Positions 32,225-62,185 of a stretch of DNA of 64,000 nucleotides are shown in pieces. Position 1 is the first letter of the stretch. The number at the start of each line of letters is the position of its first letter. The translations under genes and the position numbers were made by a program. Source of the stretch: Gracilimonas sediminicola (GTDB lineage Bacteria > Bacteroidota > Rhodothermia > Balneolales > Balneolaceae); the NCBI RefSeq assembly GCF_024320785.1, contig NZ_JANDBC010000001.1, positions 392,617 through 456,616 of the forward strand, read 5' to 3'. Below the pieces are notes generated by a model. It was not told where the DNA came from and did not search any database. It saw only the letters and a list, made by a program, of their open reading frames with translations.

Positions 32225-33418
32225 TTACTTATCCGTCAACCACGCAACCCCGGGAAGTTCTTTTCCTTCCAGATATTCAAGGCTGGCTCCACCGCCGGTG
32301 GAAACATGTGAGACCTCATCACTGAGGCCTGCCTTTTTGATTGCAGCTGCAGAGTCACCACCGCCAATAATGGTGGTTGCTCCGAATTTAGTGGCTTCAG
32401 CCAGGGCTTCCGCAACCGAGAAGGTTCCGTCTGCGAAGTTCTCCATTTCGAACACCCCCATCGGTCCGTTCCATAGTACGGTTTTGGCAGCCTTAATCTG
32501 GTTTCCAAAAGCAATGGAGGATTGTGGGCCTATGTCGAGTCCCATCCAACCGTCTTCAATACCTTCTTCATCTACCACTTTGTGTTCTGCATCGTTATTA
32601 AATTCTTTGGCAACTACAGAATCCAGTGGCAGCATAAACCGGATGCCTTTTTCTTCGGCTTCCTCAAGCAGCTCTTTGGCTAAATCAACTTTATCATCTT
32701 CAACCAAAGAATTACCGATTGGCCAGCCTTTGGCTTTATAAAAAGTATAAGTCATACCCCCGCCAATAATGATGGAATCCACTTTTGAAATCAGGTTCTT
32801 AATCACTCCGATTTTATCGGACACTTTGGCTCCACCCAAAATGGCCACAAACGGACGATCCGGATCATTGATGCTTTCTTCCAGGTACTTAATCTCTTTC
32901 TCCAGTAAAAATCCTGACACAGCCGGCTGCAGATAGCGTGTTACACCTGCTACCGAAGCATGGGCACGGTGACTGCTTCCAAAAGCATCATTCACAAACA
33001 CATCGGCATGGGAAGCCAGCGCTTTGCTAAACGACTCATCATTCTTGGTTTCCCCTTTATGAAAGCGGACATTTTCGAGCACAACCACTTCTCCATGCTT
33101 GGCATTGTATATCGCCTCCTCGGCTTTATCCCCAATACAATCTTCCCCGAAGTGAACTTTGGTGTTCAGTAAATCAGCTAAATGGTCAGCTGCCGGTTTC
33201 AGGGAGAATTCAGGTTCCGGCATTCCCGACGGTCGCCCAAGGTGGCTGGTCAAAATCAATAACCCTCCATTCTGAATTACGTGCTTTATAGATGGTAGTG
33301 CCTGTACAATTCGATTGTCGTCAGTAATTTTACCGTTTTCAATAGGCACGTTAAAATCTACGCGCATCAGCACTTTCTTCCCTTTTACATCAATATCGTT
33401 GAGTGTGAGTTTCGCCAT
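32225..33418 (-). CDS. pgk: Phosphoglycerate kinase
   Basis: This 397-residue enzyme has the N-terminal signature [16 protein letters not shown] (about 18-33), substrate arginines in SHLGRP, and the C-terminal nucleotide domain with [18 protein letters not shown] and GGGDSAAA. It catalyses 1,3-bisphosphoglycerate plus ADP to 3-phosphoglycerate plus ATP in glycolysis. No other glycolysis gene is adjacent. The DUF559 repeat unit begins just upstream of its start. Confidence 0.97.
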
Positions 33419-33494
33419 GAGTTGAGTAAATAAATTGATTGGTAATTCGATGATGAAGGTACCAAGATCTCTCCACGAAATGAAGCGGTAATCA

Positions 33495-33666
33495 CCGCCC
33501 TGATAATAAGTCTTCGACTTTTATCTGTCCCTCCCCGGAGGGACACAAATGCATGAGCAGCACAAAATGTGTGAGCAACTTCACACACCATTCCCCCAAA
33601 GAACATCCCTCTCCCCGAGAGGGAACATTTGAGCCCCGCTCAAATCAGGGCGAGGCAGGTACGACC
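33495..33666. repeat. Hairpin-rich direct repeat, copy A (upstream of DUF559 gene)
   Basis: This ~172-bp unit is shared with 34124-34294. In order it holds CGCCCTGAT (33496-33504); a hairpin around 33502-33525 (AAGTC/GACTT core); TGTCCCTC/GAGGGACA (33526-33545); a variable middle; CCCTCTC/GAGAGGG (33607-33623); TTTGAGC/GCTCAAA (33628-33644); ATCAGGGCG (33644-33652), the inverted partner of the first 9-mer; and a conserved tail GAGGCAGGTACGACC. It may fold into a multibranched structure closed by the terminal inverted repeats. Confidence 0.88.
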
Positions 33667-33724
33667 CCACCCCGTAGCATAAAACCCCAAAGAACACTAC
33701 TTTCCCAAAAAAGAGGGTACAAGT

Positions 33725-34120
33725 ATGTCAAGAAACTCCGCTTTTAACTACTATAACAAAGACCTTAGACCCAACGCCCGTTCTTTACGGAAAAACATGA
33801 CCAAAGCAGAGGTTTGCCTTTGGAAATACGGGCTCCGGAAAAAGCAGCGCATGGGATACACGTTCAACCGGCAACGACCTGTTTTGAATTACATCGCCGA
33901 TTTCATTTGCAAAAAGCTGAAATTGATCATTGAAGTGGATGGTTCAAGCCATGACAGTCCGGAGGCTTTCGAATACGACCAACGAAGGCAGCGACATCTG
34001 GAAGAAGCCGGGTTCAGAGTGATCAGGTTTCGAAACAAAGATGTGCTTACCAATATGGATGCGGTGCTTATGGCGGTAGATAAAGTGATTTTGGAATTAG
34101 AGAACGGGGCAGAGTCCTGA
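33725..34120 (+). CDS. DUF559 (Vsr-like) endonuclease-domain protein
   Basis: The 131-residue DUF559 protein has the family's ARSLRKNMTKAEVCLWKYGLR start, the fold core with D59 in YIADF and E70-V-D72-G in LIIEVDGSSHD, and a C-terminal RVIRFRNKDVL. The domain is related to very-short-patch-repair (PD-(D/E)xK-like) nucleases. It lies between two copies of a ~170-bp hairpin-rich direct repeat and between unrelated housekeeping genes (pgk and a cysteine desulfurase), so it looks like the protein of a small mobile or selfish unit. An AGAGGG ribosome-binding site precedes the ATG. The activity is inferred from the fold. Confidence 0.88.
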   Translation: MSRNSAFNYYNKDLRPNARSLRKNMTKAEVCLWKYGLRKKQRMGYTFNRQRPVLNYIADFICKKLKLIIEVDGSSHDSPEAFEYDQRRQRHLEEAGFRVIRFRNKDVLTNMDAVLMAVDKVILELENGAES

Positions 34121-34123
34121 CCT

Positions 34124-34294
34124 CCGCCCTGATCATAGTCTGCGACTATGATCTGTCCCTCCTCGGAGGGACACAGGTGTTTGTGCAATGCAAAATGTTT
34201 AAACAAACCCTTACACCTTTCTCCCAAAGAACATCCCTCTCCCGGAGAGGGAACATTTGAGCCCCGCTCAAATCAGGGCGAGGCAGGTACGACC
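34124..34294. repeat. Hairpin-rich direct repeat, copy B (downstream of DUF559 gene)
   Basis: This is the second copy of the unit at 33495-33666, in the same orientation. Elements: CGCCCTGAT (34125-34133); a perfect 10-bp hairpin GATCATAGTC/GACTATGATC (34131-34153); TGTCCCTCC/GGAGGGACA (34154-34173); CCCTCTCC/GGAGAGGG (34235-34251); TTTGAGC/GCTCAAA (34256-34272); ATCAGGGCG (34272-34280); tail ending GTACGACC. Several stem changes relative to copy A are compensated on the opposite arm. Confidence 0.88.
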
Positions 34295-34394
34295 GGTTTC
34301 CAATCCTAATCCCGAAAGCGCTTTTATCCCTGCTTTTCAATCAAATAATGGATATTTTCTCAGGGCAAAAAATAATCCAAACCTTATTCACTGA

Positions 34395-35555
34395 ATGCGA
34401 ACGGTTTACTTAGATCACGCGGCCACTACTCCCTTAGATGATCGCGTGCTGGAAGCCATGCTTCCTTACCTGAAAGAAAATTACGGAAACGCCAATTCTC
34501 CCCATCACCTTGGGCAGAAATCGAAGGTGGTTGTGGAAGACGCCCGGGAGAAAGTAGCAGCTTTAATTGGAGCTGAACCTTCTGAGATTATCTTTACCAG
34601 TGGCGGTACCGAAAGCGATAATGCCGTTATTAAAGGTGTTTTAGCTATTTCAGGTGATAAAAAGGAAGTAATTACTTCAGAATTAGAACATCATGCCGTT
34701 CTGCACACGGTGGAGCTTGCCAAAATGCAGGGTGTTAAACCCGTTTTTGCCCCATCCAAGGATTGTGGTACCATCACCGCTGATGCCGTTAAAAAATCCA
34801 TTACCGAAAACACGGCACTGGTTACGATCATGCACGTGAATAATGAAATCGGCACCATCAACCCGCTGAAAGAAATTGCCGAAGTGTGTAAAGAGCACGG
34901 AGTACCCCTTCATTCCGATACCGTTCAAAGTCTGGGTAAAATTCCGCTCAACGTAAAAGATCTGGGGATTGACTTCCTCAGTGGCAGCGCTCACAAAATT
35001 TATGGGCCGAAAGGAACCGGGATCATGTATGTGAAAAATGGTTCCAAGTGGATCCCATGGGTACATGGCGGATCTCAGGAACGCCGCCGTCGCGGAGGTA
35101 CCCTGAACGTGCCCGGAATTGTTGGTTTTGCCAAAGCCCTTGAACTGGCTGTTGAAGAGATGGATGAACATCAAAAGCATTTCAAAAAACTACGTGCTCT
35201 TCTCCTCAAAGAGATGGACACCAATCTGGAATTCAACTACAATGTAAATGGCCCGCAAAACAACGGCGTGCCCCATATCGTAAACCTCTCCTTCAGTGAC
35301 GAGCAGGGCAAATATATAGATGGCGAGATGCTGCTGCTGAACCTGGATATTGAGGGAATTTGTGTATCCAACGGCTCGGCCTGCACTTCCGGTGCCGTTG
35401 AGCCTTCACATGTGCTTAATGGTATCGGGATGGAAGACGGACTGGCTAAATCGAGCATTCGCGTAAGTTTCGGTAAGCAGAATACCGAAGAGGATGTGCG
35501 CTATTTTGTAGAAAAACTTGACACCGTTCTCAAACGAATGTTTACCGTAGCCTGA
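34395..35555 (+). CDS. Cysteine desulfurase (IscS/NifS family)
   Basis: The 386-residue PLP enzyme starts VYLDHAATTPLD and has TSGGTESDNAVIKG, SELEHHAVLH, HSDTVQSLGK, the Schiff-base lysine in SGSAHKIYGPKG (about 205) and the sulfur-accepting cysteine in SACTSGAVEPSHVL (about 325-330). It takes sulfur from cysteine for iron-sulfur clusters or tRNA thiolation. IscU and other isc genes are absent nearby, so the use (for example with MnmA) is not settled. The following LOG gene overlaps the stop codon by 1 base. Confidence 0.93.
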   Translation: MRTVYLDHAATTPLDDRVLEAMLPYLKENYGNANSPHHLGQKSKVVVEDAREKVAALIGAEPSEIIFTSGGTESDNAVIKGVLAISGDKKEVITSELEHHAVLHTVELAKMQGVKPVFAPSKDCGTITADAVKKSITENTALVTIMHVNNEIGTINPLKEIAEVCKEHGVPLHSDTVQSLGKIPLNVKDLGIDFLSGSAHKIYGPKGTGIMYVKNGSKWIPWVHGGSQERRRRGGTLNVPGIVGFAKALELAVEEMDEHQKHFKKLRALLLKEMDTNLEFNYNVNGPQNNGVPHIVNLSFSDEQGKYIDGEMLLLNLDIEGICVSNGSACTSGAVEPSHVLNGIGMEDGLAKSSIRVSFGKQNTEEDVRYFVEKLDTVLKRMFTVA

Positions 35556-50815: not shown

Positions 50816-51008
50816 GGTGCATCGGTTAAACGATGGCAGGTCTCCTGGCTTCTCCGATTGCAGCGCCTTCCCGTTTCGATTAAGAAACAGTGGCAAAGGT
50901 GAGGCTGCACTTCATCCGCCATGGGGCGGATTCGGATTACAGTTGCGGGAACAGCTCTCGTTTCTCACGAGATTCCCTTTTAACTCTGGGTGATGAAACA
51001 CATACACC
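50816..51008 (-). promoter_or_regulatory. Cobalamin (B12) riboswitch
   Basis: On the minus strand the B12 box AGCCAGGAGACCTGCC lies at 50850-50835. Upstream are the conserved core pieces GCCACTG and CTGTTCCCGCAACTGTAA (50953-50936 area) and GGGAAGGCG. P1 is closed by GGTGTAT (51008-51002) and ATGCACC (50822-50816). The element precedes the BtuB-like receptor gene and should lower its expression when adenosylcobalamin is plentiful. Confidence 0.96.
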
Positions 51009-51224
51009 CGAGACCATCATTAATTCGCTGCTAAACTAAATACATTTTCATTTAAATCAAACGTAGAATTCTCTAAGTCTCTCAGATGCAATATGATATC
51101 ACACTGATACATACCTTGTAAAAAGCTGACAATTCTATATATGACATTGACTTAGTCACTGTTTCTCTTCATAATCCCCGTACAGAATATTTGGCTTTAA
51201 TTACATTCAGAAAAGAAGGACACC

Positions 51225-62151: not shown

Positions 62152-62185
62152 AATCCCGCATTTAGTTTTAAGTGCGGGATTTTTT
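62152..62185 (+). terminator. Intrinsic terminator of the cold-shock gene
   Basis: AATCCCGCA (62152-62160) pairs with TGCGGGATT (62173-62181), a perfect 9-bp stem with a 12-nt loop and a T-run to 62185. Confidence 0.9.

Follow-up and report, generated by a model that had tools for sequence, protein, structure and literature searches.

The window, meaning the whole stretch of 64,000 nucleotides of Gracilimonas sediminicola DNA analyzed here, carries an intact gene for a DUF559 protein that is framed by two long structured repeats (Table 1). The original prediction described two same-orientation repeats of ~170 bp around a single DUF559 gene between pgk and a cysteine desulfurase gene. The two repeat copies, their shared tail and the positions of the neighboring genes all agree with this description, and the proposed span of 33495–34294 is the exact extent of the unit.

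Table 1. Features of the repeat-framed DUF559 unit and its surroundings, in window positions.
Feature	Position	Strand	Remarks
Left neighbor, pgk	32225–33418	−	
Stretch dropping out of the alignment to the empty G005 site	33486–34301		G005 has ~63 nt of unrelated sequence instead
Upstream repeat copy R1, type E, 172 nt	33495–33666	+	Outer stem common to two-hairpin half-elements, inverted pair; tail GAGGCAGGTACGACC
R1 hairpin 1	33502–33525	+	GATAATAAGTC TTC GACTTTTATC, imperfect
R1 hairpin 2	33526–33545	+	TGTCCCTC/GAGGGACA
R1 hairpin 3	33606–33624	+	TCCCTCTC/GAGAGGGA
R1 hairpin 4	33627–33645	+	ATTTGAGC/GCTCAAAT
DUF559 (PF04480) Vsr-like nuclease gene (fold as modeled), intact, 131 aa	33725–34120	+	PF04480 E 1e-34
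Downstream repeat copy R2, 171 nt, direct orientation	34124–34294	+	85% identity to R1 (BLAST); tail GAGGCAGGTACGACC
R2 hairpin 1	34131–34153	+	GATCATAGTC/GACTATGATC; one compensatory C-G pair in place of the A-T of R1
R2 hairpin 2	34154–34173	+	
R2 hairpin 3	34234–34252	+	
R2 hairpin 4	34255–34273	+	
Right neighbor, cysteine desulfurase gene	34395–35555	+	

The direct-repeat score across the DUF559 gene is 122, compared with 19 for the runner-up and a median of 13 among the 53 window genes put through the same test, so the framing is not a product of chance, and it is unique to this gene. The unit holds 7 hairpins versus 5 in the remaining 7.4 kb of intergenic DNA. Both the 53-gene control and the hairpin count serve, for the window only, as a check on the bias between intergenic and coding DNA. 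An Rfam scan of the window returned only a cobalamin riboswitch (50818–51033, minus strand, 101.8 bits), and the repeats match no family.

In Pfam, the encoded protein matches DUF559 and MTES_1575 only. Residues E29, Q50, D59, F60, E70, D72, G73, H76 and D85 are invariant in an alignment of 57 family members, and the window protein has every conserved acidic residue of the family. A profile search against the PDB retrieved 3hrl (E 4e-33), the catalytic domain of the homing endonuclease I-Bth0305I (3r3p, E 9e-7) and also PvuRts1I. For the AF2 model (pLDDT 89.5), the only confident Foldseek neighbors in the PDB are 3hrl, which is NGO0050 from N. gonorrhoeae, and I-Bth0305I (TM 0.80). As modeled, the protein would be a Vsr-like nuclease with NGO0050 and I-Bth0305I as its nearest relatives, in line with the fold originally proposed. 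The gene is under purifying selection, with a dN/dS of 0.07 against its ortholog in the sister species G007; most other DUF559 pairs gave 0.03–0.25 and one very close pair 0.69. We rejected an identity as a defence system, as the PADLOC matches were weak and confined to restriction nuclease domains.

Repeat structure and nuclease clades within the genus

Both window repeats fold as a cloverleaf whose outer stem encloses four hairpins, two on either side of a variable middle. Differences between R1 and R2 are concentrated in the middle (about 33550–33597). The same holds for the four known copies of this repeat type, type E, two of which are in the window and two in G007: the hairpin-bearing arms are nearly invariant, the middle is variable, and a single compensatory A-T/C-G exchange is present in hairpin 1.

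DNA-only clustering of the genus repeats yielded five multi-member types and singletons. Reading of the sequences resolves the long repeats into inverted pairs of half-elements, which take the form GACCTC-N7-(TTCTCCTT/AAGGAGAA)-AGACGCGTTG in type B and GACCC-N9-hairpin-GGCTCGTTGG in type C, and have two hairpins each in types D, E and F. When types B, C, D and E were subjected to consensus folding, the closed structure was recovered, and 6, 8, 18 (of 43 in type D) and 3 of its pairs, respectively, have compensatory variants; for type A, no consensus fold was obtained from a global alignment. Sequence and predicted folding characterize the repeats as REPIN-like, each made of two hairpin half-elements in inverted orientation.

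The layout recurs beyond the window. All four DUF559 genes of the G. sediminicola genome (G000) are framed by long direct repeats (200–320 nt), each gene having its own distinct repeat sequence. Their neighbors, named from translations, are pgk and the cysteine desulfurase gene, hsp33 and an amino-acid dehydrogenase gene, fadB and fadA, and a RidA-like gene and a sensor kinase gene. Nine of the ten genomes of the genus contain a total of 35 DUF559 genes. With a direct-repeat score of at least 30 as the framing criterion and repeats counted by BLAST and simple alignment, a direct repeat spans the gene at 32 of these 35 loci, versus 0 of 32 for the outer flanks of the same loci, which within one genus are not independent of each other. 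Three loci (L079, L085 and L087, of which two are orthologous) lack a repeat pair around the gene, while L086 and L101 have short flanking repeats only, with a score of 34; all of these are possibly decayed units or adopted genes.

Repeat type and DUF559 clade match one to one. On the protein tree, the labels A–F, of which F was grouped by protein similarity and includes two singleton repeats and one locus with a short repeat only, need 6 changes, the lowest number possible, as compared to a mean of 21 for shuffled labels (0 of 200 shuffles were as low).

Repeat copies are also found without a gene. Five types were concatenated into one query, and among the matches listed for it at least 102 copies lie more than 1.5 kb from any DUF559 gene (A 20, B 36, C 18, D 24, F 4). 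Copies of D and F among these matches are confined to genomes with a nuclease of that type, whereas B and C copies are present also in genomes without the matching nuclease. One genome, G008, has zero DUF559 genes, yet several repeat copies. For type E, no gene-less copies were found: within 58 genomes, the window repeat is matched only in G000, where it is absent outside the unit, and in its sister G007.

Occupied, empty and lone-repeat sites

Among the genus genomes compared, the unit occupies the pgk junction in G000 and G007 only. Seven genomes (G001, G003, G004, G005, G006, G008 and G009) can be aligned to the left and to the right of the junction and lack the whole unit, repeats included; in G002, the pgk side alone aligns. 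The interpretation given in the original prediction is borne out in part. Mobility of the unit is supported by these empty junctions, by repeat–DUF559–repeat arrangements with other repeat types at many unrelated sites, and by the occurrence of empty, lone-repeat and repeat–gene–repeat alleles among sister species. It was not borne out with respect to further copies of the unit's own repeat, of which its genome has none. In G003 (L094), a different palindrome cluster, GACTCTCCAGAGTC and CCTAAAATCAGG/CCTGATTTTAGG, stands at the place of the unit. The junction is possibly a hot spot for repeat insertion.

The fadA–fadB site presents a wider range of states. It is occupied by a unit in G000, G002 and G009, holds a lone repeat and no gene in G004 and in G001, the sister of G009, repeat copies without a gene in G008 and a 45-nt half-element in G005, and has neither unit nor repeat in G003, G006 and G007. 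At another place, a type-C unit of G009 with repeats that agree at 199 of 200 positions is wholly missing from G001, where the right flank is 98% identical. Because the intergenic DNA has diverged, no target-site duplication and no base-exact junction could be read at the pgk or type-C junctions.

Transposition of one type-A unit between G000 (L005) and G007 (L081) was considered and rejected. The flanks of the G007 site lie apart in G000 with one repeat each, which two repeat–repeat recombinations explain, and the pair was thus not counted as gene movement. Since these flanks show repeat–repeat recombination rearranging the chromosome, the repeats also serve as rearrangement breakpoints. Breakpoints between the G000 and G007 chromosomes coincide with type-A copies (G000:C3:615907 and C1:164476; L104, L225, L226), and the G007 contigs C3 and C1 end in or near type-A repeats.

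DUF559 genes and palindromes in other bacteria

DUF559 was detected in 45 of 80 genomes of a phylum sample. Of the free-standing DUF559 genes that this phylum has in other genera, 26 of 56 are framed by direct repeats (score of at least 30) versus 2 of 55 outer controls, and 43 of 56 versus 11 of 55 have hairpins with a stem of at least 8, a comparison biased toward palindromes by the gene since most of the near-flank DNA is intergenic, whereas the outer flanks consist largely of coding DNA. Subject to the same bias, a strict scan for triplex motifs gave 125 motifs at 106 DUF559 loci; 99 sets of outer flanks contained 4 and shuffled flanks 0. Perfect hairpins, often in inverted pairs, lie within 330 nt of the gene at 11 of 12 loci from Alpha- and Betaproteobacteria, Deinococcota and cyanobacteria, a search that drew on plasmid and megaplasmid records, and a Sphingomonas locus is arranged as pair–gene–pair.

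In E. coli K-12, a palindrome adjoins the DUF559 gene ycjD (L126, 1908–2261). Dispersed copies of it are present in 5375 of 5426 genomes, with a median of 16 per genome. We identify this palindrome from its sequence as BoxC, which has been studied as an intrastrand triplex motif (PMC4666352); the strict pattern used in our scan does not score the ycjD copy. The fabI–ycjD–sapF stretch is covered to at least 80% in 3333 of the 5375 genomes, so ycjD is probably variable in E. coli. It seems to be missing at the fabI–sapF locus in roughly 2000 complete genomes, and among the strains listed one has an SMI1/KNR4 gene replacing ycjD and two carry IS1 at this locus.

In other Bacteroidota, DUF559 was found in frame within host proteins, several of which are important or essential. 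The hosts are metH (L031, L033, L034, L036, L038, L041, L045, L021), leuS (L044, L127, L159), cinA (L047), adenine deaminase (L024), hsdR (L129) and hsdM (L132), and Pfam confirms the host protein for one metH case as well as for leuS, cinA, adenine deaminase, hsdR and hsdM cases. The inserts are edged by peptides resembling translated palindromes (SPLTPKGGIK ... SPSGTGGAGK). Similar endonuclease-bearing in-frame inserts without intein or intron motifs are the ShiLan-type homing inserts of phage methylase genes (PMC11855218), which, however, have an HNH enzyme, an alternative frame and no flanking repeats; this likeness concerns only the in-frame DUF559 cases of other genomes.

Candidate mechanism, rival explanations and known systems

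We consider it probable that the unit is a compact selfish element of REPtron-like or homing type, composed of structured repeat, non-HUH DUF559 nuclease and structured repeat, whose matched nuclease homes via the repeats. This reading draws on the layout, the pairing of types and clades, the gene-less copies of other types, the empty and lone-repeat alleles, the purifying selection and the modeled fold. From the one-to-one match between repeat type and nuclease clade and from the homing-endonuclease fold, we infer that the nuclease recognizes and cleaves the repeat, much as originally suggested, and that break repair copies it; a homing-type break-and-repair route is suggested by the Vsr-like fold. 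As kin of EDxHD homing endonucleases, the nuclease would most likely recognize the repeat of its own type, folded or paired, and nick or cut it. Repair of the break could then put a new copy elsewhere, either of the repeat by itself or of the gene flanked by repeats, or might convert a lone repeat into repeat–gene–repeat. The repeats would double as recognition site and homology arms, and half-elements, pairs and full units would spread through the genome along with the matched nuclease. Recombination between the direct repeats may remove the gene so that a single repeat stays behind, as happens with solo LTRs. Several points count against the selfish-element reading. Target duplications and junctions are unreadable, type E has no gene-less copy, 3 of 35 loci are unframed, and the one apparent relocation (L005 versus L081) is accounted for by recombination between repeats. 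The presence of types B and C in genomes without their nuclease means that a genome can, at the least, keep repeats when the enzyme is missing, and as a PD-(D/E)XK nuclease is unable to rejoin ends alone, host repair must do so.

A gene flanked by hairpins in inverted pairs, scattered copies that are single or paired, and matched repeat/enzyme pairs are also REPtron traits (PMC3733652), and they would suit a mechanism in which DUF559 acts on single-stranded replication hairpins, excising and inserting repeats as RAYT transposases do with REPs and differing in chemistry only. This is unlikely, given that the window protein has no HUH/Y1 domain among its Pfam matches and models with a Vsr-like fold. 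To our knowledge, such a fold forms no covalent intermediate and could therefore not catalyze strand transfer. The strength of the purifying selection, the persistence of repeats in G008 and the role in mismatch repair proposed for VsrA, a DUF559 protein of Caulobacter (PMC12907096), could instead mean that the repeats are moved by another agent or arise through recombination, while a trapped DUF559 gene is kept for Vsr-like repair of structured DNA. We regard this as quite improbable, because close relatives lack the gene at the same sites, the gene recurs next to a clade-matched repeat at many loci, and DUF559 turns up in frame within essential genes of other bacteria. That the repeats are RNA elements, for instance an RNA antitoxin or a guide for a DUF559 ribonuclease, would fit their strong foldable structure with compensatory changes and the resemblance of direct repeats by a small nuclease gene to type III toxin-antitoxin loci, but is very improbable for repeats that flank the gene on both sides, also stand alone far from any nuclease and match no Rfam family, and for a protein whose closest solved relatives are DNA endonucleases.

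In its anatomy, the selfish element favored here would be a REPtron with a different enzyme. It resembles REPtrons in the small nuclease gene framed by inverted hairpin pairs, the matched repeat and enzyme types and the gene-less copies, single or paired. However, the window enzyme is Vsr-like (PD-(D/E)XK/EDxHD) and not an HUH Y1 tyrosine transposase (RAYT), its two flanking repeat blocks have the same orientation, and a reading of the sequences found no GTAG tag, another REPtron trait, beside the stems of the window repeat. Many gene-less copies, as typical of REPtrons, are seen for the genus types A, B, C, D and F but not for the window type in its own genome. With the EDxHD homing endonuclease I-Bth0305I, the unit shares the fold of the catalytic domain, sequence similarity, the conserved acidic/His site and a site that is occupied or empty among relatives. 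Unlike that enzyme, the window protein is a bare catalytic domain (~110 aa) without extra DNA-binding domains, and its gene lies outside any intron or intein and is framed by structured repeats. Classical insertion sequences have terminal inverted repeats and a short target duplication; the long repeats of the window unit are direct, and its junctions have diverged too far for a duplication to be read.

Many DUF559 genes adjoin a hairpin with a mirror-symmetric purine block, as found in the BoxC/PIT/intrastrand triplex repeats of E. coli and >260 other genomes. This triplex motif, in which a third, mirror-symmetric purine block comes after the hairpin, is present in every type B and C locus. 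The window repeat appears to be a variant with two hairpins that lacks the third block, with one weak motif match in the unit and none in the G007 ortholog. No associated mobility gene has been found for BoxC-type triplex motifs (PMC4666352), and a dedicated transposase is reported to be lacking for CGTC-tagged REPs and Rickettsia palindromic elements (PMC3733652). The latter two resemble the repeats studied here as short inverted-pair palindromes that also occur in frame within proteins. Their stem sequences differ from ours, and CGTC or GACG adjoins the stem only in some of our types. CGTC-tagged REPs are marked by CGTC, TGTC or CCTC immediately ahead of an 8–9 bp stem that opens with A-T pairs; GAC/CGTC lies by the stem in type A, in type B and in S. 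meliloti, and the window hairpins read differently. Our literature search, which left most subscription journals outside, found no link between DUF559 and repeats, REPIN and BoxC topics included.

Because close relatives lack these repeats at the site and the same family is repeat-framed in many other bacteria, our data suggest that DUF559 is the missing partner of widespread palindromic repeats that spread without a known enzyme. We propose only tentatively, with the balance leaning slightly against it, that DUF559 proteins are the long-missing mobility enzymes of bacterium-wide repeats (BoxC/PIT triplex motifs together with some or all CGTC-tagged REPs), working in matched pairs by homing-like cut-and-repair and able to insert in frame into essential genes. 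If true, this would assign a function to DUF559, a domain that is very widespread but has so far been without one. Both BoxC/PIT triplex repeats and CGTC REPs occur commonly and have been tied to genome instability, and a causal link between DUF559 and BoxC would settle an open question for a bacterium-wide repeat class.

Two other hairpins of CGTC-type, REP-like appearance, TGTCATCCCGCA...TGCGGGATC and GATTCCTGCTTTCGCAGGAATGAC, stand at the fadA–fadB site of G007 (L117, about 1393–1501). An intergenic hairpin in the window, AATCCCGCATTTAGTTTTAAGTGCGGGATT at 62152–62181, is similar to these palindromes and may represent a lone repeat element.
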